Assembly (NCBI GenBank): GCA_025363605.1
Contig: JANYDO010000359.1
Location: 1-47,593, forward strand
DNA length: 47,593 nucleotides
Direction of reading: 5' to 3'
Source of the DNA: Candidatus Kapaibacterium sp.
GTDB lineage: Bacteria; Bacteroidota; Ignavibacteria; Kapaibacteriales; UBA4661
Part shown: one piece after another, positions 785-32,004 of the stretch
Layout: each line of letters opens with the position of its first letter
Position numbering within the stretch: the stretch's first letter is position 1
Translations under genes and position numbers: made by a program
Notes under the pieces: model-generated
What the model was told of the DNA's origin: nothing
What the model saw: only the letters and a program-made list of their open reading frames with translations
Database searches by the model: none

Positions 785-833
785 AAGGTCTATTTTGTTG
801 AACAACTTGTTGCACAACGACACGAGGAAAACG

Positions 834-1166
834 TTGAAACTGAAACCCGAAAAACTTCTCGAAGAACTCAAAGCTATTGCCGAAACTATCGGCGTTCAGG
901 TGATTATTGACAAAGGCAATTTTTCTGGTGGACACTGCCTCGTTTACGAGGAGCGCAAAATCGTTTTGAACAAACTCCTGCCACCGGAAGTCAAAGCCGC
1001 CAAGCTCGCACAAAGTCTGACGTTCTATTCGCTGGAAGGCATAGAACTCAAGCCCGCGCTCCGTGATTTTCTGGATAACGAGCGTCTGCGCCTTGCTTCG
1101 CGTACAAAAGATGCTCTGAGTGACGAGGCTCAAGCAGTTGTGAACGACGTTCTGGCAAGCGTGTAG
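834..1166 (+). CDS. Conserved hypothetical protein, about 110 aa
   Basis: Small soluble protein with no signal peptide or membrane segment. It is mostly alpha-helical by composition. Its most distinctive part is the segment GNFSGGHCLVYEERKIVLNK, which looks like a conserved glycine-rich strand-turn, but no known family is recognised. The start chosen is TTG at 834, because GAGGA (824-828) lies five bases upstream. The same frame could also open at another TTG at 795, only ten bases beyond the repeat at 660-784, which would add residues of doubtful origin. The adjacent repeat may therefore have replaced the original promoter or leader. It reads in the same direction as the PEPCK-like gene downstream, with a gap of about 110 bp. 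Function unknown. Confidence 0.6.
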   Translation: MKLKPEKLLEELKAIAETIGVQVIIDKGNFSGGHCLVYEERKIVLNKLLPPEVKAAKLAQSLTFYSLEGIELKPALRDFLDNERLRLASRTKDALSDEAQAVVNDVLASV

Positions 1167-1279: not shown

Positions 1280-3802
1280 ATGGCACGAAAACCACCCTCC
1301 CGCATTGCGAAAAAGAAAGCTCCGGCAGCACAAGAGATTGCTTTGCCCGTAGAAAACCTTGCGGCGCAAGATGTTCAGATACAAAGCAATCAGCCCGACG
1401 AACATACGCCGGAGCCGCTTGTAGAGCAGCTGCAAGCTGAAGCGCCCAAAGGTGCAAAACCAAAGACGAGCCCGAAGAATCAAGCTCCTGCTGGTAAGAG
1501 TCAAGCCCCGAATGCCAAAACTCCTCAAGTAGAGAAGCCTTCAGCGGAGAAATTATCAGCAGAGAAACTATCGGCGGAGAAGCCGCTAATGGCTGCTGCA
1601 CCTGTTCAAAAGCCTGCTCCCGTAACAAAACCTGCACCAGCAACGAAGCCCGAACCAAGCGGACAAATACTCCCCTTGCCGCAATTCTTGGCGCAAAAAC
1701 ACGGCTTGCACAACCTTGGGCAAATCTTCATCAATCTTTCTACGCCGGAACTGTATGAACACATCTTGTTCCTGCGCGAAGGCGTTATGTCTGCGCACGG
1801 GGCAGTGATGGTGGAAACGACACCCAACACGAAACTTGCTGTACGCGACAAATTCATCGTGGAGGAAGAGATAAATAAAGAACATATTGCATGGGGCGAG
1901 GCAAATCGAGCTATTGAGCAATCAAAATTTAATGCCCTCAAAGCACGCATCGGAGCGTATTTGCAGAAGCGGAATGTCTATGTCCAAGACTGTTTCGCGG
2001 GTTCGGACACACGTCTCAGAGTACCGTTGCGCGTTGTTACTGAAAATGCGTGGCAGAGTCTTTTTGTCCGCAACACCTTTATTGAAGCGCTTCCGGCAGA
2101 ACTTCGCCAATTCGACCCGCGCATGACGATTATTTCCCTGCCCAACTTCAAAGCTATTCCCGAAATAGACGGCACACGGGCGGAAACATTTGTTCTCTAC
2201 GATTTTTCGCAGCGTCTCGCCATTATCGGCGGCACACGCCATGCAGAAGAAATTAAAAAAGCTGTCTTTACGGTAATGAGCTATGCCATGCCGCTTCGCC
2301 GCGTCTTGCCTATGCGCTGCGCTGCCAGCATTGGTGCAAACGGTGAAACCGTGCTTCTTTTCGGCACGAATGGTGCCGGCAAAACAACTCTTTCGGTGGA
2401 CACCGCGCGAACTCTCATTGGTGACGATGCTCACGGTTGGGGCGATGATGGCGTGTTTGCTTTTGAAGGCGGCGGATATGCCAAAGCGCAAGGAATATTG
2501 CCGGAAACAGAGCCTTCGCTCTATGCGGTATCGCGGACGTTTGGTACGATTCTCGAAAATGTGAAATTCGACACCACGACACGCATTGCGAACCTTGCCG
2601 ATACATCTATCAGCGATAATGCCCGCGTTTCATATTCTCTCGCACAACTTTCTCCGTTGCAGCCGGTCACGCCCAAACTGCGCGGCGCACACCCAAAAAA
2701 TGTCATACTTCTTGTCAACGATGCCTTTGGCGTACTACCGCCCGTAGCGCGGCTGACGCAAGAGCAAGCTGTCTTTTTCTATTTGTCCGGCTATGCTGCA
2801 AAAAATCCCATCGGCGAACCGAAAATCGAGCCGCGATCTGTCTTCAGTGCTGGCTTTGGCGAGACATTCATGGTGCAAGACCCCGTCTCATACGCGAATC
2901 TTTTCCGCGAGCGTCTGCGCCGTAATAATACGAAAGTTTGGCTTGTCAATACGGGATGGCAAGGCGGAACACAGGCAACGGGAAGCCGTATCAAGCGCGA
3001 TTACTCGCGTGCGATTGTGCTCGCGATTACTTCCGGCGCTCTTGATTCGGCGCAGTATAGCATTGATGCGGTGTTTAATCTCAGTGTGCCGTCGGCGTGT
3101 CCGGGTGTACCGGCAGCAATGTTGAATCCGCGTAATGCTTGGGCTGACCGTGCGGTATATGAAAAAACCGCACAAAAGCTCCTCCAACTTCTGACAGAAA
3201 ACTTCAAGAAATATGCAGGACGTGTTGATAAATCTATTGCGCAAGCTCTTGCAGCTCCCGCGCAAACTGCACAAAAACAGAATCCTCCGTCCAATGCACC
3301 TGCGCTTGCAACCGCCGCTGCACCGCAGATAGTAAAATCGGGTGCAAATATGCCACCGGAAATTCTTACACCCGACATTTCGGTAGCTGCATCGCCGGAA
3401 ACTCCCGCAGAAACAGCTTCGGGCAAGAAAATTCCACCCAAAAAAGTCAAACCCGTCAAAAAAGGACGTGGTAAGCAAGTGCTGATAGAAGAAGATGATG
3501 AAGCAGAGGTCGGCGACACAGGTTCGCACGAAACCATAGACGCGCCATACGATAATGACGATGATGCAGGCGCAGATGTCATCATTCCGTCCAGCCTTTT
3601 TGTGAGTGAACCCGAAGGCGAGTTCCGTCCGGATGATGATATGCTAACACCATCTACCTTTGATGATGAAGATGACGACGACATTGCTGATAATGGTGAG
3701 GCGCAAGACGGCAATGACGCTGCCGGAGACGAGCAAGGACAAGCTCAATTCAAGGGTGGTCGCCGCCGCAGAGGTGGTCGTGGTCGTCGTCGCCCGCGAT
3801 GA
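1280..3802 (+). CDS. PEPCK(ATP)-like protein with low-complexity tails and altered active site
   Basis: 840 residues. Residues 131 to about 650 align over their whole length with ATP-dependent phosphoenolpyruvate carboxykinase, normally about 540 aa. ATP-side motifs are intact: P-loop GTNGAGKTT (K368), LIGDDAHGW (D382/D383) and NARVSY (the Arg equivalent to E. coli R333). The substrate and metal side is not. By ungapped local alignment to E. coli PckA (from memory), R65 becomes L186, Y207 becomes H321 and the Mn ligand H232 becomes R346, while K212/K213 are kept. Residues 1-130 are Ala/Pro/Lys-rich with three SAEKL-type repeats. Residues 650-840 are disordered, strongly acidic, and end in an RG-rich GGRRRRGGRGRRRPR tail of the sort that binds nucleic acid. 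It may bind nucleotide without making PEP. A divergent active enzyme is not excluded. Confidence 0.85.
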   Translation: MARKPPSRIAKKKAPAAQEIALPVENLAAQDVQIQSNQPDEHTPEPLVEQLQAEAPKGAKPKTSPKNQAPAGKSQAPNAKTPQVEKPSAEKLSAEKLSAEKPLMAAAPVQKPAPVTKPAPATKPEPSGQILPLPQFLAQKHGLHNLGQIFINLSTPELYEHILFLREGVMSAHGAVMVETTPNTKLAVRDKFIVEEEINKEHIAWGEANRAIEQSKFNALKARIGAYLQKRNVYVQDCFAGSDTRLRVPLRVVTENAWQSLFVRNTFIEALPAELRQFDPRMTIISLPNFKAIPEIDGTRAETFVLYDFSQRLAIIGGTRHAEEIKKAVFTVMSYAMPLRRVLPMRCAASIGANGETVLLFGTNGAGKTTLSVDTARTLIGDDAHGWGDDGVFAFEGGGYAKAQGILPETEPSLYAVSRTFGTILENVKFDTTTRIANLADTSISDNARVSYSLAQLSPLQPVTPKLRGAHPKNVILLVNDAFGVLPPVARLTQEQAVFFYLSGYAAKNPIGEPKIEPRSVFSAGFGETFMVQDPVSYANLFRERLRRNNTKVWLVNTGWQGGTQATGSRIKRDYSRAIVLAITSGALDSAQYSIDAVFNLSVPSACPGVPAAMLNPRNAWADRAVYEKTAQKLLQLLTENFKKYAGRVDKSIAQALAAPAQTAQKQNPPSNAPALATAAAPQIVKSGANMPPEILTPDISVAASPETPAETASGKKIPPKKVKPVKKGRGKQVLIEEDDEAEVGDTGSHETIDAPYDNDDDAGADVIIPSSLFVSEPEGEFRPDDDMLTPSTFDDEDDDDIADNGEAQDGNDAAGDEQGQAQFKGGRRRRGGRGRRRPR
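1541..1585 (+). repeat. Three 15-nt in-frame tandem repeats (SAEKL/SAEKP) in the PEPCK-like gene
   Basis: Three consecutive 15-base units of the type TCAGCGGAGAAATTA encode S-A-E-K-L, S-A-E-K-L and S-A-E-K-P in the disordered N-terminal extension. Being multiples of three, copy-number changes would alter length without breaking the frame. Confidence 0.8.
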
Positions 3803-3972: not shown

Positions 3973-4018
3973 GACTTCAGTAGCACGGACTGAGCGCTGC
4001 GCTCACTTGTCTGTGTTA
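3973..4018. repeat. Partial copy of the 563-632 element
   Basis: GACTTCAGTAGCAC and TTGTCTGTG match, in opposite orientation, parts of the repeat at 563-632. They flank the perfect small hairpin GAGCGC-T-GCGCTC. Only one end of the element is recognisable. It lies right before the DUF2459 gene and makes a start upstream of 4034 unlikely for that gene. Confidence 0.45.
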
Positions 4019-4033
4019 CAAATAACATCAAAT

Positions 4034-4705
4034 ATGAGGCTCTCGAAAAAAAATGGTATTGCTCTCGCACTTGTATTGATGCTCGCTTTGAGTATGATAA
4101 TTGCATTTCTTGTTCCGCGGCGTTTCGGATTGCCTTCGCAGGAGCGTGATAATGCAGCAGTAGAAATACGAGTGGCGCGGTATCTGTATCATACGGGTAT
4201 TATTATGCCCGTACGGACACCAGAGGTTGACTGGAGTCAAACGTTCCCATGTTTGCGTGGGAAACAATCTTTTGAAATTGGCTGGGGCGATCGTGATTTT
4301 TACATGAGCGGCAGCATTACCGTAGGTTTGGCATGGAAAGCACTTTTTCAATCACAGGCATCGGTGCTGAATGTAAGTGGCTTCGATACAGCAATAACGG
4401 ATGAGTTCTTGAGTACCGAGCCGTTTGCGCAGAAAAAAATTCGCCTCAGCGCGGTTAATTACAAACGCATGGCAACATGGATACGTGCTTCGTTTGCTCT
4501 TCAAAATGGAGCACCCATTTTTCTCCGCGAAGGTTTCTGGGGCGCATCCTCAGCGTTTTACGAAGCAAATACTGCTCAAACAGGTGCATACAGCATTGTC
4601 AATAATTGCAACGTTTGGAACAGCAATGCGCTTGATGCCGCGAACCTCCCTGTTCCGATGTGGTCTGGTGTTCCATATCCGCTCTTGTGGATGCTGCCGG
4701 AATAG
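4034..4705 (+). CDS. DUF2459 family protein (TIGR02117 type), membrane-anchored
   Basis: 223 residues. An N-terminal hydrophobic helix (about residues 7-28: ALALVLMLALSMIIAFLV) anchors the protein or serves as a signal. The rest matches the DUF2459 pattern: YHTGIIMPVRTPEVDWSQ near the start, FEIGWGDRDFYM, then FWGASSAFYEANTAQTGAYS, and NNCNVWNSNALDAANLPVPMWSG near the end. The conserved His, Asp, Cys and Asn positions suggest an enzyme-like fold, but no reaction is established for the family. The ATG at 4034 is used because the longer frame starts inside a repeat. The gene is flanked by a repeat upstream and by the ATP-grasp gene about 95 bp downstream, with no evident operon partner. Confidence 0.75.
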   Translation: MRLSKKNGIALALVLMLALSMIIAFLVPRRFGLPSQERDNAAVEIRVARYLYHTGIIMPVRTPEVDWSQTFPCLRGKQSFEIGWGDRDFYMSGSITVGLAWKALFQSQASVLNVSGFDTAITDEFLSTEPFAQKKIRLSAVNYKRMATWIRASFALQNGAPIFLREGFWGASSAFYEANTAQTGAYSIVNNCNVWNSNALDAANLPVPMWSGVPYPLLWMLPE

Positions 4706-4798: not shown

Positions 4799-6226
4799 AT
4801 GACGTTTCATTCCTACAACCCCGAAGGCTTCTACGACGAGCTGTTTCAAGCAGACGGTTCACCACGCGAGGGCGCAAAAAAACTGGTGGACAAAATTAAC
4901 TCACTCGGCACAAACGACATCCGCCTCCGTCAGCAAGCCGCCGAGAGTACGCTTATGAACTTGGGCATTACTTTTAATGTGTATGGTGACGATGAAGGTG
5001 TCGAAAAAATCTTTCCCTTCGACCTCATTCCCCGTATTGTCGAGGCTGTGGAATGGCATAAGCTCCAAGCGGGCTTATATCAACGCATCAAGGCGCTGAA
5101 TCTCTTTTTGCAGGATATTTACCATGAGCAAAAAATTCTCAAAGACGGTGTCATTCCTGAGTTTGTTATTACCACAAGCAAAGCATTTTTACCACAGTGC
5201 AAAGGTTTGAAGCCGCCCAAAGGCGTATGGTGTCATATTACCGGTACGGATATTATCCGCGACAAAGACGGTACGTTCTATGTACTGGAAGATAATTTGC
5301 GCTGCCCCTCCGGTGTTTCTTACGTTTTGGAAAACCGTCAGGTAATGAAACGTACATTTCCTGAGGTCTTTGCTACGTCTAATGTTGTGCCGGTGGATGA
5401 CTATTCCTCTCGCCTACTGGACGTGTTGCAGTGGCTTTCGGGGCGCACCAACCCTGTTTGTGCGGTACTCACGCCGGGCATCTATAATTCTGCTTACTTT
5501 GAGCATTCCTTTCTGGCGCGGCAAATGGGCATTGAGCTTGTGGAAGGGCGTGATTTGGTCGTTGTCAATGGTACAGTACAAATGCGCACAACCAAAGGTT
5601 TTCGCAGAGTAGATGTGATTTATCGGCGCGTTGATGATACATTTCTCGACCCGACGGTTTTCAATCCTGATTCGCTCTTGGGCGTTCCGGGCATTATGGA
5701 TGCGTATCGCAAAGGGAACGTTGCTCTTGCAAATGCACCCGGTACGGGGGTGGCAGACGACAAAGTTGTGTATGCGTATGTCCCCAAAATGATTCGGTAT
5801 TATTTGGGCGAAGAGCCGATTTTACCAAATGTTCCCACATATGTCTGCTGGGAAGACGAGCAGCGTGAGTATGTGCTGGACAACATCGAACAACTCGTCG
5901 TGAAAGCTGCCAACGAGTCCGGCGGCTATGGAATGCTGGTGGGACCGCACGCCACAAAAGAAGACCACGCAAAATTCCGTGAATTAGTTGCTGCCGACCC
6001 GCGTAATTACATCGCGCAGCCGACCATTTCGCTCTCGCGTGTTCCCACCTTTGTGGATGAAGTTTTTGAGGGACGGCACGTGGACTTGCGTCCGTATATT
6101 CTCTATGGTGAAGATATTTTCGTAATGCCGGGCGGACTAACGCGAGTGGCGCTGCGTAAGGGTTCGCTGGTAGTAAATTCTTCCCAAGGTGGCGGTAGCA
6201 AGGATACGTGGGTGTTGGGGAGTTAG
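4799..6226 (+). CDS. Circularly permuted ATP-grasp protein (DUF404/DUF407)
   Basis: 475 residues, near the normal family length. Recognisable landmarks are IFPFDLIPRIVEAVEWHKLQ, then RIKALNLFLQDIYHEQKILKDG, YVLEDNLRCPSGVSYVLENR, NSAYFEHSFLARQMGIELVEG, VYRRVDD-type acidic motif (VIYRRVDDTFLDP), VVKAANESGGYGMLVG and LRPYILYGEDIFVMPGGLTRVA, ending in SSQGGGSKDTWVL. ATP-grasp enzymes of this type are predicted to form amide or peptide-like bonds using ATP. They normally sit beside an alpha-E (DUF403) protein and often a transglutaminase-like protease. Neither partner is found here: the gene is followed by two small hairpins and an AT-rich island. It may act with partners elsewhere. The exact substrate is unknown. 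Confidence 0.9.
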   Translation: MTFHSYNPEGFYDELFQADGSPREGAKKLVDKINSLGTNDIRLRQQAAESTLMNLGITFNVYGDDEGVEKIFPFDLIPRIVEAVEWHKLQAGLYQRIKALNLFLQDIYHEQKILKDGVIPEFVITTSKAFLPQCKGLKPPKGVWCHITGTDIIRDKDGTFYVLEDNLRCPSGVSYVLENRQVMKRTFPEVFATSNVVPVDDYSSRLLDVLQWLSGRTNPVCAVLTPGIYNSAYFEHSFLARQMGIELVEGRDLVVVNGTVQMRTTKGFRRVDVIYRRVDDTFLDPTVFNPDSLLGVPGIMDAYRKGNVALANAPGTGVADDKVVYAYVPKMIRYYLGEEPILPNVPTYVCWEDEQREYVLDNIEQLVVKAANESGGYGMLVGPHATKEDHAKFRELVAADPRNYIAQPTISLSRVPTFVDEVFEGRHVDLRPYILYGEDIFVMPGGLTRVALRKGSLVVNSSQGGGSKDTWVLGS

Positions 6227-12334: not shown

Positions 12335-13585
12335 TCAAGCTGCTACTTTGTACGGAGTAATGCGTACAGGGCGAACTACAACGCCCTGTATCCCATCGGC
12401 GGAATCACGATTCCAAGCGTTTGGGAATACTTTTCGGAGAATATTTGCCGCTCCGTTAATATCGGCATTGATTTGGCGACCGTCTGAAGCCACAAACAAG
12501 CCCCGATGCTTGCGTTTACCCATGTAGGTCTCGTGTTTGGTAATTGGTTCATTGTCCAAAAACGAGCATTTTGAGGTGTAGCTTTCTTCGGTCAAAACAA
12601 CCGCAATACCGACCAATGCTGCTTTGTATCGCAGTTGGTCAATAAACCGCGCATGAGGAATGTTCACAAAGGCTTGATTGGTGCGCTTGCCAAGATTAAC
12701 CTCTTGCTTCCAGTGCGGGTTTTTACCGATAACCAGTGTACCGATGCCGCGTTCGACCAGTTCTTTGATAACGAGGCTGCTTGCATGATGCAAGTAATTG
12801 TCCATTTTGCAGTTCCGTTTGTGCGTCAGCTTGCGAATACGGCGCGAAGTCTGCTTTTCGCCGCCGCCACGGTCGCCGTGGCATCGTGATTGCAAGGCTG
12901 CTTTTTGCTTGTTGTAGTAGGCGTTCATGGATTTAAGCGGTCTGCCGTTTATCAAGAGCGGACGGAATCCGGCTTGATTGGAAGTTACAGCCGCAAGTGT
13001 TCCAATGCCAATATCTACACTCGCTATCTTGCTTTTGTCGGCGGTCTTTTCAAGGTCGGATTTTTGAGGTGCTTTATCGTACACAACTTCAACAACATAG
13101 TGGTCAAGCTGAGGACTGATGCGGACTTGTTGAATATTGTGCTGCTTGGTCGGCACGTCAATCGTCGTCATGGACAAGCGCACAATGCCGTTACGAAGAT
13201 GCGGCTTGGAAACCGCCTGCACCGTGTAGAGCGCGAGAAATCGCCCTTGTTCTTTGTTTTTGTAACGTGGAAGTTTTGGTTTACCAAGAAAACGCTCAGG
13301 ATGCTTGCCAAACTCGCGCATGGCGGCAAAATGTGCTTTCCAGTTGCGGCAAAGTTGCATCAGAACTTGCTGGGAGACTTTTGACGGCAAGGCACGATAC
13401 GCATCGCTCGGTTGCATGAGTTTATCCAATGCGTTGTAGCCAAGCACCGTGTTGGTCGCAAAGAACTGTTGGCGAATCGTGTAGTTTGCCAGATTGTAGA
13501 GGTTTTTTGCGGCAAAACACACACGGTCGCACTCGGCGAAAAGTCGGTGGTTTTTGGTAATGATATGACGTTCTACAAGTCTCAT
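12335..13585 (-). CDS. tnpB: TnpB RNA-guided endonuclease of the IS607-type element
   Basis: 416 residues. The N-terminal helical recognition region (RLFAECDRVCFAAKNLYNLANY) is followed by the RuvC-like nuclease with its three acidic residues visible: D191 in SVDIGIG, E334 in LTEESYTSK and D375 in INADINGAANI. TnpB cuts DNA matched by a guide RNA made from the element's own end and helps the element persist. The usual CxxC-CxxC zinc ribbon between the last two motifs is missing. It is replaced by KCSFLDNEP...KRKHRGLF, a variant seen in a TnpB subgroup. The start ATG overlaps the recombinase stop as ATGA, giving coupled translation. The frame is intact. Confidence 0.9.
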   Translation of the reverse strand: MRLVERHIITKNHRLFAECDRVCFAAKNLYNLANYTIRQQFFATNTVLGYNALDKLMQPSDAYRALPSKVSQQVLMQLCRNWKAHFAAMREFGKHPERFLGKPKLPRYKNKEQGRFLALYTVQAVSKPHLRNGIVRLSMTTIDVPTKQHNIQQVRISPQLDHYVVEVVYDKAPQKSDLEKTADKSKIASVDIGIGTLAAVTSNQAGFRPLLINGRPLKSMNAYYNKQKAALQSRCHGDRGGGEKQTSRRIRKLTHKRNCKMDNYLHHASSLVIKELVERGIGTLVIGKNPHWKQEVNLGKRTNQAFVNIPHARFIDQLRYKAALVGIAVVLTEESYTSKCSFLDNEPITKHETYMGKRKHRGLFVASDGRQINADINGAANILRKVFPNAWNRDSADGIQGVVVRPVRITPYKVAA

Positions 13586-14175
13586 TCGTTCTCGTGCAGT
13601 TCTTTGATGATGGCTTCCGCCATCGTTACGATGGCTGTCTTGCGTTGTGAACGGCGTAATCCGTAGAGACGCGCCGTAAAACTGGTGATGATAGCGACAA
13701 AATCTTGCATCAAATCATCTTTATTGTCGTGGACGTTGTTGATAATCTCAATCGTTTTGCCTTGCTTTTGAAGCAGAACACCAAGATAATTGACACCAAA
13801 CCGCGCCAAACGGTCTTTGTGTTCAACAAGCACAATATCCCAAGCGTCCCAGAGCAAGATTTTTTCCAACAACGGACGTTTATCATTCAATCCGCTTCCA
13901 ATTTCTTTGACTTCGCGGACAATCGTGTAGCCTTTGGCGGAAGCATAGCCACGTAAGCGTTCAAGCTGTGTTTCAACGTTGGCCTTATTTTCCGACGATG
14001 AGACACGGGCGTACAACACCGCTCGTTGCTTGGTTGTAACAACATTAGAAGATTCTTCTTCGACCACAATCGTTCCGCTTGCAAGCTGTGTACCCTTGAT
14101 AAAACCCTGCTTCCAATGGCGGTGCGCTGTGCGGTACGAAATCGAATGGCGTTTGGCATATTCTGAGAGTTTCAT
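13582..14175 (-). CDS. tnpA: IS607-family serine recombinase TnpA
   Basis: 197 residues. The N-terminal MerR-like helix-turn-helix (LSEYAKRHSISYRTAHRHWKQG) is followed by the resolvase catalytic domain. YARVSSSENK holds the nucleophile, probably S59. Further conserved residues are in QLERLRGYA, the EIGSGLNDKRP loop and VEHKDRLARFG. It performs the strand exchange that moves the element, using a covalent serine-DNA link. The N-terminal placement of the DNA-binding domain is typical of IS607 and distinguishes it from classical resolvases. Length is normal (about 200 aa) and no defect is seen. Its stop overlaps the start of tnpB. Confidence 0.93.
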   Translation of the reverse strand: MKLSEYAKRHSISYRTAHRHWKQGFIKGTQLASGTIVVEEESSNVVTTKQRAVLYARVSSSENKANVETQLERLRGYASAKGYTIVREVKEIGSGLNDKRPLLEKILLWDAWDIVLVEHKDRLARFGVNYLGVLLQKQGKTIEIINNVHDNKDDLMQDFVAIITSFTARLYGLRRSQRKTAIVTMAEAIIKELHENE

Positions 14176-25069: not shown

Positions 25070-25256
25070 GTCGTGAAAAAAATGTGTGAAAAAAGTCGCT
25101 TTCTTGTGCTATAAGAAGATTTGCAACGTGCGGCATATCTTATCTTTGGTATGAGCCTGTGAATCTTGGAGGGGTCGAACGGCTTTTATACTCCATCCCT
25201 GTCTCATCTGATATACCGAAAAAAAAATCTGTAAAAAAAAATGCCGCCTGCCGTAA

Positions 25257-25276
25257 ATCGGGACATTTGTCCCGAT
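25257..25276. promoter_or_regulatory. Inverted repeat ATCGGGACA-TT-TGTCCCGAT in the leader of the giant surface gene
   Basis: A 9-bp perfect inverted repeat with a two-base centre, about 80 bp before the ATG at 25354. It could be an operator or a leader hairpin. The surrounding 25070-25353 is otherwise non-coding, with runs of A and no recognised gene. Confidence 0.35.
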
Positions 25277-25353
25277 ACTTCGTGTGTATGTTTGCTGGAG
25301 TGTTTTTGGGACACTGTTCACACTTCCTTTTTACGTTTTTTTTGGAGTTTACT

Positions 25354-28300
25354 ATGATTATGCTGTTTCGCTTCTTCCGCCCTCGAACTATCCCACTTGT
25401 GCTGCTGCTGTCGGTGTGCTGTGTGGTACTCGGTCTTGCACAGACTGCGCCGACTATTTCCAGTATCAGCCCTACCTCTGCTCCAACAGCATATTCAGAA
25501 ATTGACCCCATAACGGTCAACGTTATGAACGTTATGCCCTTTATTTCCGGCAGTTCTGGCTTTGGAGAGATACGCTATGTTCTAAGTAATTCACGTGGAG
25601 ACAGCTTGTATGGGGGTAAAGTTAGCAGACCGAGTAGTACTTTCTTGTTTCCCCTTGAAACTCCTTATAGCGGTCCTGTGAAAGTGTTTGTCTCTTCTTT
25701 ATCAAATCCGATAAATGGAGTTTTTCAATCTCTGGCTCCGGGCGATGTTTTCATAAGAATTATTGGTCAAAACGGAAGGTCAAACAGCGCAATATTTACC
25801 TATACCGATATGAGCATTGTCAGTTTTTCGCCGTCATCGGGTCCCCCGGGAACGGTTGTTACGTTAAATGTGCGCGATGGTGTTCCTATCAATAACAGTA
25901 ACGGTCTCGGGAGTTTTCGCGTATTACAGGTCAATTCACGAGGAGACACAACTGCGATAGGTTACGACGGCTCATTGCCACTCACTTCACGTGTCTATAA
26001 CGGACCATTTCAAGTTACTGTTCCGCCAATATTCTATCCAATAAGAGGTAGTAGTTATCCTACACCTTCTGGACCGCTCACCATCACGTTATCAGGTGGT
26101 CGCTATAATTCAGTGAACCCTATCGGTTCCATCAGTGGTGGTACAGCAAGTGTTGTTTTCACCGTCACCGCCCCCACCCCACCACTACCCATAATCACAA
26201 GTTTTACTCCGGCTTCGGGTACAGTCGGAACGCTCGTTACCTTAACCGGAACGGGCTTCCGTTTTGCCGGCGGTAGGCAGATTCAGTCCGTACAATTTGG
26301 CAGTGGAGCGGTTGTAACCGGTGAAAGTATCGGTGCTCAGACCGAAACGCAGTTGGTGGTACTTGTTCCGCCGGGAGCGCAGACGGGACCTATCACCATG
26401 ACGGACAATAGCGGTCGAAGAATTACCACCACCACACCGTTTACGGTCATACCCCCGGTGCCGACTATTTCAGGGTTCTCGCCCACAAGCGGTATGACAG
26501 GGGCGCTCGTGAGCATTATTGGGACGAATTTCACGGGTGCAACCAGTGTGCGCTTTGGAGGGCTTTCTGCCAATTTGTTTGATGTCAATACGGACGGGAC
26601 ACTCATTGCAGTAACAGTTCCGGCGCTTGCGTCGAGCGGCACTATCAGCGTTACCACGCCAGGCGGCACGGCGACAAGCGCAAATGGCTTTACCATTAGT
26701 GCGCCCGCACCGACCATCACCGCTTTCACGCCCACAGGCGGCATTCCGGGCGCGGTTATCACTATCTCCGGCACGAACTTCACGGGTGCTACAGCTGTGC
26801 GGTTAGGCGGAATAAACGTGCCGTTTACCGCCATAAGCCCAACGCAAATCACCGCTACCGTTACCGATGCCGGGGGTTCGGGTGTTATCACCGTTATTAC
26901 TCCAAGCGGCACCGCCACTTCCGGCACATCGTTTACGTTCATGCTGCCGTCGCCCGTGATAAGCAGTTTCACGCCCACAAGCGGTGGTATCGGCACGAGT
27001 GTCGTTCTTTCCGGCAGCAATTTTACGACTGTTAGCCGTGTTTTCTTCGGTTCGTTTTCCGCACAGGCATTTTCGATTGACAGCGACACGCAAATCACCG
27101 CCATTGTGCCGAATTTTGTTACCACAGCAACGATTATACTCCAGTCGCCACGCGGCACGGCTATTTCGGCAACGCCCTTTACTTATGTGCCGGGAGCGCC
27201 CATTATTAGCGGCATTACCCCAACCGGTGCCCCGGCGGAAACACTTATCACTATTCAAGGCTCCGGGCTGACGGGCGCAACGAATGTACTGTTTACAAGC
27301 ACCACTTTCCCAAGCGGCATCAGTGTTACGCCGACGGTTGTGAGCGATAGAATAATTCGCGTGAGTGTACCCATTAGTGCGTCATCGGGTCCTGTTACCG
27401 TTACCACGCCACGCGGCACGGTGACAAGCGCCTTTGATTTTGTTGTAACGCTGGTAGTCAATGCCCGCTACTTTACGCCTGCTTCCGGCGCAGTCGGCAC
27501 AAATGTTGTCGTGAGTGGTTCACAGCTCGCGGGAGCAACATCGGTGCGCTTTGGCGATGTGGAAGCACCGATTCTGAGCAATACCGATTCGCAAATCCAA
27601 ACCCGTGTTCCGGCAGTCGTAAGCGGGCGTGTGCCAATCATCGTCCGTACTCCATCGGGAGTCGGAACGCCGCCGTACGCGCTCTTTTCCGTGAGCGCCA
27701 CGCCTTCGCTGACAGGCTTTGCTCCGGCAAGCGGCGCGGTGCTTGCAAGCGTGGTGCTGACGGGAAGCAATTTCACGGGTGCAACAGCAGTGAAATTCGG
27801 CTCTACGCCAGCAACAGCTTTTACGGTCAATAGCGGAACGCAAATCACCGCCACTGTTCCGGCAGACGCAGCTACGGGCGTTATCAGTGTCGTTACGCCA
27901 AGCGGCACTGCCGCTTCGGGCGCACCCTTTACGATTATTACTGCGCCGAATATTGTCCGCCTGAGTCCGGGAAGCGGCTCGGTGGGAACAACGCTGGCAA
28001 TCGTTGGCGTGGGCTTCACGGGTGTAAGCAGCGTCAGTATTGGTGCTGCGCTGATGACTTTTACGGTCAATAGCGACGGACAAATTACGGCTACGCTTCC
28101 GGCTGGCGCACTGGCGGGTATTGTGAGCGTTACCACGCCGGGCGGCACGGCGCGGTCAGCCTCGCCCTTTACTATCCTTCCCCCAACGCCCACGATAAGC
28201 GGCTTCGCGCCACCTTCGGCGCTTGCCGGGGCAGTGATTACTATCAATGGTACGAATTTCACAGGTGCAACGGCGGTGAGCTTTGGCACAACGCCCGCAG

Positions 28301-31300
28301 CATCCTTTACAGTGGTGAGTGCCACGCAAATCACCGCTACCGTTCCCGGCGGTGTGAGTGCCGGTGCGGTAAGCGTGGTTACACCCAATGGCACGGCAAC
28401 ATCGAGTGCCGTATTTGCACTGCTTATGCCGCCGCCCATTATCACAAATTTCACGCCCACAAGCGGCAGCCCGGGAGCAAGCATCACCATCACGGGACAG
28501 AATTTTGCGGGTACAAACAGTGTTTCCTTTGGCGCGGCACCTGTGGCAGGTTTTACGGTGTCGGCAGACGGTAGAACCATCACGGCAACGGTCGGCACAG
28601 GCTCTAGCGGCTTGGTGAGTGTGGTTACGCCGAATGGCTTGACAAGCTCAAGCGCAGCCTTTACCTATCTTCCGCCCGTTCCTTCAATAACAAGCATTGC
28701 GCCGACGAGCATCAGAGCGGGTGAAGCCTCAACGCTGACGATACAAGGCGCAAATTTGAGCGATGTACGTCTCGGTGGCACCGACGATGCGGGGAACACC
28801 CTCGCGCCGTCGCTGCTTTCTAACACTGCGACAGCTGTTTCTTTCAGCATCATGCCAATTGGTGCGGGTTTGGTGACCTTCACGCTCACTACGCTCGGAG
28901 GCAGTGTGAATGCTCCGCCCGTAACGGTACAATCGCCACGCCCCTTCATTACCGGCTTTTCGCCGACACGGGCGCGGACGGGCGATATGATAACGATTTC
29001 GGGAACAAATTTGGACGCGGCGAGCGCCGTAACGCTTGGCGGAACGCCCGCAAGCATCGTTGTGGGCAGCAATACCTCTACGCGAGTACAAGGAACCGTC
29101 GGCACAGGCGCGTCGGGTGCGGTGCAAGTAACCACGCCCGGCGGCACGGCATCAGCCGCAGCCTCTTTCAGCTTCGATGCTTCAGCTCGTCCGCCGGTAA
29201 TAACGGGATTTTCTCCGGCAAGCGGACCGGCGGGAACGCGAGTAACGATAAGCGGCACAGGCTTTACGCGGGATGGGCTGAATATCGGCATCAATTATTC
29301 CGCTTGGCACGAGATTGTCAGCGTTACGCCAACGGAAATCGTGTTTGTTGTGGGAGCAAATGCACAAGGGCAGACCGGTCGTATTCAAATCTGGTCGGCA
29401 GCAGGGTACACGGAGTCGTCAGGCAATTTTACCTGTACTATTCCGACAACACTGGACGCGCCCATACCGACAAGTCCCGCTAATGCGGCGACGCTAACCA
29501 GTACCACAAGTTACGTAGCAGTTTCTTTTTTATGGAATGCGGCGGTAGCTGCAACAACGTACTCTATTCAAACTTCGCTTGATGCCGGTTTCTCCTCTGC
29601 TCCCAACGCATATACGGCTTTATGGTCGGTCAGTGGCACAATAGCAAATTCATATATTTATACCCCTCGAAGCGGGCAACCGCCTTTGACGACCTACTGG
29701 CGTGTCCGTGCCCTCAATGGCGCTGTGCAAAGCCCCTGGTCAGCAGTGCAGCGGGTCTTGGCTGCACCTCCGGTGCGTATTCTAAGCGTTTCTCCGGCGG
29801 AAATGCAGCAAAGCGCATCGGTAACGATGACAATAACGGGCGAAAGCACGGATTTCACGATTGCCAGAGGTATTTCCCTTATTTTGGGGAGCACAACTAT
29901 CATTGGAGCGCTACAACCCGGGGCAACCCCCACGCAGTGTACGGCATCGTTCACTATTCCGCCGGATGCGCCGCTTGGGTTCTACAGCGTCGTTGTGAGT
30001 GGTGCTCCGTCGGAGGTAAGGCTTCTGAATAGTTTATCCATAACCTCTGCAAGCGGTGAATTAGAGGTTCCCGTTACCACAGGCTTCAATACGCTTGTCC
30101 ACGGCTTTAACTTTTGTAACTGCTCTGATAATATCTGGCCCACTTCGGCATGGAGCAGTATTGATTATACTTCATCGGTGTATCCGACGGCTGTTCGCAC
30201 ATCCGGTGTCAGCACCAGCGTTTTCCCCTCGTTCGATGACTATGCGGCAATCAAAGATTTGAACACGGGTGCCGGTACTTTCTATTCGCCGTTCTATTCC
30301 GATGGTAGCCGTTATCCCGGCTCGTCGCCTAGCGTTGTTAATGCCTCATACATATCACAGTGGTTAGGTTACGGACCCTGGGGTGGCTCGTGCGACGGAA
30401 TGTCGCAGGTGAGTTTGCTGAATTATGCAGGCGTTGCGACGTATCAATTCTCGGGAAGACCGTTTAGCCTAGGTTCAGCGCTCACCAACGACAATTTGCG
30501 AAAACTTATCAATCGTCATCAAAACTGGCAAACATCCGGAGCTTTCGGAGGGGGTGGAGTATCGGTTAATCAAACACTGGCGCAGCTTCGCGCTGATTTG
30601 GCAAGCGGCGACCCGATGCGTCACCGAAGACTTTGGATATCCCCTCAAGATGGCTGCGTAGGTCATGCTATTATCCCCACAGGAATTACCACAAGTAGAA
30701 ATGTGGCGGGGCAGGTTATTGAGCGTATAGCAGTGTATGACGTGAATCTGCCGGGCAACCTCACGCCTTTTGTGGAGGTCAATCGAACACTCAATACGTG
30801 GGTATATCCTCAATATGATAACCCAGCTAGGCGATGGAGCGGTACGACGGGCTTGGGCTTGTCAAACACCGTCGGTGAAATTCGCACCTTTTCCAGCCGC
30901 CCCGGACCGATTGCCACTCTTCAAGACGACCCGCTGCAAAATATCGTTGTCGGCTTTACTTCGCCCTTTCGTACTGCTTCGGGTGTCTCGCTTGCTCCTG
31001 TGGTTCAGCTGACCACTTCACGGGGTGGGCGTATTGCTTCTGAGGGCAGCGATGCCGTGGCGCCAACTATTCCGGGCGCAATGCTGAACAAGACACTTGG
31101 TGGCTTACCGCCGAATTTTACGTCGTCTGTGAGTGGCTTTACCTTCTCCAATGTGCTTGGTTCGGAAGCGTTCACCATCAGCTATACGCCGGTTACACAA
31201 GACCAGTCGAATCGTTTGACAGCAACAGGTGTCTCTGGCTTTATGGCGGTGGATTGGACGGCTTCTTCGACGACGCAATCTCAGTCTATTGTAATAAACA

Positions 31301-32004
31301 CGCAAAACGCTGCTATCACCATGAGCTCGCCCAATTCGCTTTCCGGCATCAATACAACGTATTTTGTCAATGCGCCGTTTCAATCATCTGCTTCGGCATC
31401 GAACAAAAATATTCTTCGCATTGTCAACACAACGCTTGCTGCGGGCGATACGCTGGCGACGAGCGTGGAGAACAGCGCTACCACACTGGTACTATACAGC
31501 AACGCTACTCCTCGCATCTATGACTTACAGCTTGCCCGCGACACAACCTTGCTCACTTTTCCGCGTATTTCGATGGGCGCAAACGAGCAGCATCAAATCC
31601 GCGCTTCCTCGTGGGATAACCTCCGCACCTCACCGATTTACCTTATCATCAGCAAGCGCGGTGCGGCAGCGCAAGGCGCACAGTCACAGGTACTGCAACT
31701 TAATCCCAATGCTAACAACCTGACCGATGTTCGTTCCGGCGGCGGCACAAGCATTGGCACAATGCGTGTCTTTCCGAATCCGGCTTCAACACTTGTTTCG
31801 GTGGAAGCGTCTGTCGGTGCAGCTTCTACGCTGCGTTTGCAGTTGGTCAATATTCTGGGGCAAGTGCTGTGGAGTCGTGAAGAAACGGTGCAAGCAGGCG
31901 CGTATCGCACAGAGATTGATATGACGAATTTTCCTGCCGGCGTGTACATTGTGCGCATTGCGACGGGCGAACACTATCAAACTGCAAGGATTGTCAAGCC
32001 GTAA
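25354..32004 (+). CDS. Giant IPT/TIG-repeat surface protein with cysteine-peptidase-like module and T9SS tail
   Basis: 2216 residues. A signal peptide (MIMLFRFFRPRTIPLVLLLS then LGLAQ) is followed by about 15 IPT/TIG immunoglobulin-like repeats, each opening with a phrase like ISGFSPTSG and containing GTNFTGAT.V.FG. A fibronectin-like segment around TTYWRVRALNGAVQSPW and one more IPT-like unit follow. Residues about 1590-1850 resemble a papain-fold domain: C1680 in GGSCDGM, H1771 in GHAIIPTG and D1796/N1798 in VYDVNLPG. The last about 85 residues (MRVFPNPASTLVSVEA to GVYIVRIATGEH) form a type IX secretion sorting domain, so the protein should be exported and fixed to the cell surface. It is probably an adhesin or surface enzyme. 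GGAG lies eight bases before the ATG. Confidence 0.92.
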   Translation: MIMLFRFFRPRTIPLVLLLSVCCVVLGLAQTAPTISSISPTSAPTAYSEIDPITVNVMNVMPFISGSSGFGEIRYVLSNSRGDSLYGGKVSRPSSTFLFPLETPYSGPVKVFVSSLSNPINGVFQSLAPGDVFIRIIGQNGRSNSAIFTYTDMSIVSFSPSSGPPGTVVTLNVRDGVPINNSNGLGSFRVLQVNSRGDTTAIGYDGSLPLTSRVYNGPFQVTVPPIFYPIRGSSYPTPSGPLTITLSGGRYNSVNPIGSISGGTASVVFTVTAPTPPLPIITSFTPASGTVGTLVTLTGTGFRFAGGRQIQSVQFGSGAVVTGESIGAQTETQLVVLVPPGAQTGPITMTDNSGRRITTTTPFTVIPPVPTISGFSPTSGMTGALVSIIGTNFTGATSVRFGGLSANLFDVNTDGTLIAVTVPALASSGTISVTTPGGTATSANGFTISAPAPTITAFTPTGGIPGAVITISGTNFTGATAVRLGGINVPFTAISPTQITATVTDAGGSGVITVITPSGTATSGTSFTFMLPSPVISSFTPTSGGIGTSVVLSGSNFTTVSRVFFGSFSAQAFSIDSDTQITAIVPNFVTTATIILQSPRGTAISATPFTYVPGAPIISGITPTGAPAETLITIQGSGLTGATNVLFTSTTFPSGISVTPTVVSDRIIRVSVPISASSGPVTVTTPRGTVTSAFDFVVTLVVNARYFTPASGAVGTNVVVSGSQLAGATSVRFGDVEAPILSNTDSQIQTRVPAVVSGRVPIIVRTPSGVGTPPYALFSVSATPSLTGFAPASGAVLASVVLTGSNFTGATAVKFGSTPATAFTVNSGTQITATVPADAATGVISVVTPSGTAASGAPFTIITAPNIVRLSPGSGSVGTTLAIVGVGFTGVSSVSIGAALMTFTVNSDGQITATLPAGALAGIVSVTTPGGTARSASPFTILPPTPTISGFAPPSALAGAVITINGTNFTGATAVSFGTTPAASFTVVSATQITATVPGGVSAGAVSVVTPNGTATSSAVFALLMPPPIITNFTPTSGSPGASITITGQNFAGTNSVSFGAAPVAGFTVSADGRTITATVGTGSSGLVSVVTPNGLTSSSAAFTYLPPVPSITSIAPTSIRAGEASTLTIQGANLSDVRLGGTDDAGNTLAPSLLSNTATAVSFSIMPIGAGLVTFTLTTLGGSVNAPPVTVQSPRPFITGFSPTRARTGDMITISGTNLDAASAVTLGGTPASIVVGSNTSTRVQGTVGTGASGAVQVTTPGGTASAAASFSFDASARPPVITGFSPASGPAGTRVTISGTGFTRDGLNIGINYSAWHEIVSVTPTEIVFVVGANAQGQTGRIQIWSAAGYTESSGNFTCTIPTTLDAPIPTSPANAATLTSTTSYVAVSFLWNAAVAATTYSIQTSLDAGFSSAPNAYTALWSVSGTIANSYIYTPRSGQPPLTTYWRVRALNGAVQSPWSAVQRVLAAPPVRILSVSPAEMQQSASVTMTITGESTDFTIARGISLILGSTTIIGALQPGATPTQCTASFTIPPDAPLGFYSVVVSGAPSEVRLLNSLSITSASGELEVPVTTGFNTLVHGFNFCNCSDNIWPTSAWSSIDYTSSVYPTAVRTSGVSTSVFPSFDDYAAIKDLNTGAGTFYSPFYSDGSRYPGSSPSVVNASYISQWLGYGPWGGSCDGMSQVSLLNYAGVATYQFSGRPFSLGSALTNDNLRKLINRHQNWQTSGAFGGGGVSVNQTLAQLRADLASGDPMRHRRLWISPQDGCVGHAIIPTGITTSRNVAGQVIERIAVYDVNLPGNLTPFVEVNRTLNTWVYPQYDNPARRWSGTTGLGLSNTVGEIRTFSSRPGPIATLQDDPLQNIVVGFTSPFRTASGVSLAPVVQLTTSRGGRIASEGSDAVAPTIPGAMLNKTLGGLPPNFTSSVSGFTFSNVLGSEAFTISYTPVTQDQSNRLTATGVSGFMAVDWTASSTTQSQSIVINTQNAAITMSSPNSLSGINTTYFVNAPFQSSASASNKNILRIVNTTLAAGDTLATSVENSATTLVLYSNATPRIYDLQLARDTTLLTFPRISMGANEQHQIRASSWDNLRTSPIYLIISKRGAAAQGAQSQVLQLNPNANNLTDVRSGGGTSIGTMRVFPNPASTLVSVEASVGAASTLRLQLVNILGQVLWSREETVQAGAYRTEIDMTNFPAGVYIVRIATGEHYQTARIVKP

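Follow-up and report, generated by a model that had tools for sequence, protein, structure and literature searches.

An 840 amino acid protein related to ATP-dependent phosphoenolpyruvate carboxykinase (PEPCK), encoded in the window (the whole 47,593 nucleotide stretch of DNA analyzed here), is, judging from its sequence, very probably no longer a PEP carboxykinase. The best explanation, favored at somewhat better than even confidence, is that the lineage's original ATP-PEPCK lost catalysis after it had been replaced and has since been retained by selection in another role.

Fold and active site of the PEPCK-like protein

The reading frame and its core were located as follows.
1280–3802, forward strand: PEPCK(ATP)-like probable pseudoenzyme of 840 amino acids (ORF with ATG start, Pfam, structure-sequence match, residue map)
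1700–3247, forward strand: PEPCK core, residues 141–656, fold kept (match to 1j3b and core model)

Residues 148–612 matched Pfam PEPCK_ATP (PF01293; E 9.5e-160), residues 141–656 aligned with the Thermus ATP-PEPCK 1j3b (E 2e-143), and the predicted core fold (pLDDT 89.7) gave TM values of 0.93–0.96 to 1j3b/1xkv and of 0.92–0.97 over the Thermus ATP-PEPCK structures matched. The protein belongs by homology to the ATP-PEPCK family, with full-length sequence and fold matches to PF01293 and PckA structures, and the three lines of evidence agree with the full-length PEPCK(ATP) core proposed in an earlier note made from the sequence. The start codon was backed by the MARKPP/MARP N-terminus, which is kept in relatives. 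The TIGR00224 pckA score (503.9 bits) did not pass the 590-bit equivalog cut-off, and none of the NCBIfam PEPCK models scored the protein above its cut-off. It resembles ATP-dependent PckA (PF01293; E. coli 1AQ2/2PXZ; Thermus 1J3B) in whole-length fold, P-loop, Asp pair, nucleotide-site residues, and ancestral locus, but lacks the equivalents of R65, Y207, G209, H232, S250, and E270 and adds long N- and C-terminal extensions.

The catalytic roles of the E. coli PckA residues are established, and the residue map related them to the protein in the window at the following positions.
1835–1837, forward strand: L186, equivalent to E. coli R65; substrate Arg lost
2240–2242, forward strand: H321, equivalent to Y207
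2246–2248, forward strand: E323, equivalent to G209, the invariant Gly of the substrate loop
2315–2317, forward strand: R346, equivalent to H232; Mn ligand lost
2363–2389, forward strand: P-loop GTNGAGKTT, residues 362–370; K368/T369 kept, N364 equivalent to S250
2423–2428, forward strand: D382-D383, equivalent to D268/D269; kept
2429–2431, forward strand: A384, equivalent to E270
2624–2626, forward strand: R449, equivalent to R333; kept here, lost in G007/G031

The substrate residues R65, Y207, S250, and G209 were thereby found as L186, H321, N364, and E323, and the Mn site (K213/H232/D269) retained K213 (as K327) and D383 with H232 replaced by R346. The nucleotide site (P-loop K254/T255, D268/D269, K288, and R449) was unchanged at all 11 positions. 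The three substitutions first read from the sequence (L186 for R65, H321 for Y207, and R346 for H232) fell exactly in place in the alignment to PckA, which added E323, N364, A384, and T363 (E. coli L249), and the ATP motifs said to be kept, GTNGAGKTT and GDDAHGW, were both present. All six members of the main clade showed changes at 6/8 substrate/metal positions versus 0/11 nucleotide positions, and 21/113 conserved columns outside both sets were changed (Fisher p = 0.0015 for the substrate/metal set). The substitutions are not attributable to chance, as none of 35 canonical sequences deviated at any of the 19 catalytic and nucleotide positions and the same changes recur in independently assembled relatives. 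Among PDB titles are PckA mutants of these residues (R65Q, Y207F, G209N/S, K213S, and S250A); the literature searched yielded no kinetic paper on E. coli PckA residue mutants.

Distribution of the altered forms

The sample comprised 119 genomes of the order, with eight genomes in the genus of the window (g1) and ten in its family. PEPCK matches were identified in 111 of the 119, typically as an open frame of approximately 550 amino acids, and the long altered forms were restricted to the one ten-genome family. The closest named relatives were Ignavibacteria MAGs with 67–71% identity across nearly the entire protein including the tails, and a search of the class under a strict cut-off added no close relative from beyond the family. 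The substitutions R65L, Y207H, H232R, S250N, and E270A were common to six species (G000, G037, G053, G048, G016, and G024), so that the search for homologues with the same substitutions and tails suggested in the earlier note returned five further species with the same changes, and RG-rich ends in relatives. The syntenic copies of G007 and G031, from the same genus, had Y207H and E270A in common with the main clade and carried their own R65G, G209R, S250A, K213N, and R333I; H232 was kept, 7/8 substrate/metal positions including K213 and R333 were lost, and K288 was lost too. A distant relative, G057, was very diverged and had also lost the P-loop Lys. The copy of the nearest relative (G043a) retained all catalytic residues yet bore a 195 amino acid basic tail, and the same genome held a second, canonical ATP-PEPCK (G043b). 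From an intact enzyme, through an intact one with a tail, to two distinct states in which catalysis has been lost, these genes form a clear natural series. The sequences that grouped with G043b (L043 / L071) came from a different family of the order (G006, L051) and from an acidobacterium (L007), a pattern compatible with an alternative replacement by horizontal transfer.

HPr kinase/phosphorylase has a PEPCK-like P-loop on a related fold and phosphorylates proteins; its likeness to the 840 amino acid protein lies in that related P-loop fold, but a Pfam search of the latter found no HprK domain match. A change into a different phosphotransferase or ATPase, using the kept P-loop, Asp pair, Lys, and Arg to transfer phosphate to some new protein or small-molecule substrate in the manner of HPr kinase, is a rather unlikely reading that nevertheless draws on several observations. 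The window's own clade retained all the equivalents of K213, K254, T255, D268, D269, K288, and R333, and the substituted pocket residues (L, H, E, R, N, and A) were fixed within it, as expected for a reshaped site and not for free drift. Pseudokinases that gained new transferase activities offer a precedent (PMC10211241). However, G007 and G031 lost K213, R333, and K288 with the core still under selection and G057 lost the P-loop Lys, making one common new catalysis unlikely family-wide. Some phosphoryl-transfer chemistry may occur in the window's own clade, where K213, D269, R333, and the P-loop are intact.

Probable replacement by GTP-PEPCK, descent, and selection

A genome search identified the 840 amino acid gene as the single PEPCK_ATP in the window's genome, together with one GTP-PEPCK (L010) that matched a solved GTP-PEPCK (E 2e-283) with all catalytic motifs present. 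The second, canonical pckA that the earlier note had advised looking for was thus borne out as a second intact PEPCK, but of the GTP type and not as a pckA. GTP-dependent PEP carboxykinase (PF00821/PF17297) is distantly related in fold (12–15% identity in the fold match) and is here a separate gene with an intact active site and no tails, predicted to supply the PEPCK reaction in the same genomes. It was present in 11 of the 119 genomes, namely 9/9 with an altered gene versus 2/110 of the others sampled, these two being in another family; G043 was without it. Active-site motifs were intact in 9/9 genomes with the altered gene, so that on sequence grounds the original activity would be supplied elsewhere in each of them. 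On contig C37 of G057 (L044 53-4634), the PEPCK-like gene, the most diverged one, directly precedes the GTP-PEPCK gene, both on one strand and separated by approximately 100 bases, an arrangement that points to co-transcription or to insertion of the incoming gene next to its predecessor; the GTP-PEPCK frame there contains a run of Ns and a short repeat of flanking sequence.

The strict co-occurrence in nine genomes and the adjoining genes of G057 could also speak for a role beside the replacing GTP-PEPCK, as its regulator or chaperone, for instance in a mixed complex with that enzyme or its mRNA. This is considered improbable, as the two genes were on different contigs in the eight g1 genomes, the ATP and GTP types are only distantly alike, and the co-occurrence is equally expected if GTP-PEPCK merely freed the old gene. 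Retained PEP carboxykinase activity with rearranged residues, such as H321 replacing H232 as Mn ligand, is less probable again: in its favor are the conserved fold with K213, D269, and R333 and the fixation of H321 in 8/8 g1 members; against it, six invariant positions of the pocket were substituted jointly, among them G209 (by a charged Glu/Arg) and R65, the sister branch also lost K213 and R333, and an intact GTP-PEPCK occurs in each genome concerned.

Loss of catalysis in a native enzyme, the preferred explanation, is consistent with the locus. The gene order amidohydrolase, 123 amino acid protein, PEPCK-like protein, (DUF2459), and ATP-grasp was kept in g1, and the G043a locus had one further neighbor gene in common with it. 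This conserved order indicates descent in place, with the native pckA as the most likely identity of the altered gene. Canonical sequences were split (96/99) from G043a and the altered genes in the phylogenetic tree, in which the gene evolved fast in G024 and G057, the latter a long branch of unsure placement. The core dN/dS was 0.03 (G053/G048), 0.04 (G000/G037), and 0.10 (G007/G031), compared to 0.10–0.46 for the extensions in the same three pairs and 0.01–0.05 for the ATP-grasp neighbor; in wider pairs dS was near saturation and dN/dS is rough. The core values indicate strong purifying selection on a fold whose catalytic residues are lost, and therefore no decaying pseudogene. A pseudogene on its way out or an assembly error, to which the lost catalytic residues and the fast evolution in G024 and G057 might point, has a negligible likelihood given core dN/dS far under 1, frames open in all genomes of the family (that of G024 split by contig ends), and synteny and tail motifs conserved in independently assembled genomes. 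The nucleotide-binding pseudoenzyme predicted in the earlier note is well supported at the sequence level by the lost substrate and metal residues, the kept nucleotide residues, purifying selection, and the separate intact PEPCK.

Terminal extensions, neighboring genes, and proposed role

The extensions comprised the following parts.
1280–1687, forward strand: N-terminal Ala/Pro/Lys-rich extension, residues 1–136, starting MARKPPSR..KKK, predicted unstructured
3248–3799, forward strand: C-terminal tail, residues 657–840, predicted unstructured
3482–3724, forward strand: acidic stretch, residues 735–815, net charge -30
3581–3637, forward strand: short conserved tail motif IIPSSLFVSEPEGEFRPDD, consensus [IVL]P.[GS]LFA..E..GEFRPDD
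3752–3799, forward strand: RG-rich C-terminal end KGGRRRRGGRGRRRPR

These lengths, about 136 and about 185 amino acids, are close to the N-terminal extension of 130 residues and the tail of 190 residues described earlier, and the tail is acidic and then RG-rich as claimed, ending in GGRRRRGGRGRRRPR. Conservation of the acidic/RG tail took the form of spaced motifs: the terminal 17 residues were identical at 17/17 positions in G037 and 14–15/17 in G053 and G016, and most of the tail shared 25–75% identity per 20-residue block with G037, below the RG end. G007 and G031 have an RG-rich end that is spelled differently, and an RG-rich C-terminus and basic N-terminus were conserved in kind across the relatives. 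The tails of g1 and of G043a/G057 were not clearly alignable, so that homology of the tails family-wide is tentative. A full-length structure prediction from eight sequences did poorly even in the core (pLDDT 41) and says little on the tails beyond the absence of predicted structure. A tail common to many proteins was rejected, as the tail and an RG codon pattern, searched against the window's genome, hit this gene alone at the sensitivity used.

An RG/RGG-rich disordered tail, as in RNA- or DNA-binding proteins, is present but suggestive only. Pfam gave no nucleic-acid-binding domain, only PEPCK and weak P-loop matches, and for the PEPCK-like protein the analysis turned up no operon, no nucleic-acid partner, and no homologous RNA-binding domain. 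Nucleic-acid binding is a prediction from composition, and the RG and acidic composition is weak evidence for RNA binding.

The genes around the PEPCK-like gene were as follows.
795–1166, forward strand: 123 amino acid protein, upstream, no Pfam match, syntenic in the genus, order-wide
4007–4705, forward strand: DUF2459 protein, downstream, syntenic in six of eight genus members
4799–6226, forward strand: circularly permuted ATP-grasp type 2, syntenic

The 123 amino acid protein belongs to an unnamed family found in 100/118 genomes of the order in one copy each; it was rejected as a dedicated partner, since it is order-wide and lies on another contig in G043. DUF2459 was absent from the G007 and G031 neighborhoods, and no partner gene specifically linked to the PEPCK-like gene was found. 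Elsewhere in the window, adjoining ORFs of 416 and 197 amino acids (12338–14175, reverse strand) look like an IS607-type TnpB-like/serine-recombinase pair, and the C-terminal end of a 2281 amino acid ORF (25159–32001) seems to resemble a secretion/sorting-type domain.

In the proposed course of events, the tail would have arisen in an active enzyme, a second PEPCK would then have arrived, and the pocket would have been lost, with further losses differing in at least two branches; we infer that replacement came before loss. The core would bind ATP-Mg and shift conformation with the nucleotide, with no turnover of PEP or oxaloacetate, and the two disordered extensions (PP.LF..E..GEFRPDD and RG-rich motifs) could dock it on protein and nucleic-acid partners, most likely RNA. 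The result would be an ATP-responsive adaptor or regulator. The adaptor/RNA-binding step is a possibility held at a little under even confidence. The fullest version, in which a central gluconeogenic enzyme, once GTP-PEPCK had replaced it, became genus-wide a regulator that senses ATP and associates with RNA or ribosomes, and the tailed, active-site-intact intermediate persists in the sister genus, is tentative and on balance doubtful.

The open literature searched, a partial coverage that is not proof, contained no description of an inactive PEPCK family or pseudo-PEPCK and nothing relevant on an RNA-binding bacterial PEPCK. Pseudoenzymes derived from active enzymes generally show lost catalytic residues, a kept ligand site and fold, and a new role (PMC10211241), as here; the word carboxykinase is absent from that recent review. 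The PEPCK-like protein can be classed as a new branch of pseudoenzymes within an already known family, one with a well-understood mechanism, and its loss of catalysis goes along with the arrival of a replacement. Automatic annotation would name such proteins PEP carboxykinase, and the reaction would consequently be placed on the wrong gene in metabolic models. Should binding of ATP and RNA be demonstrated, the family would represent a direct conversion from metabolism to regulation.
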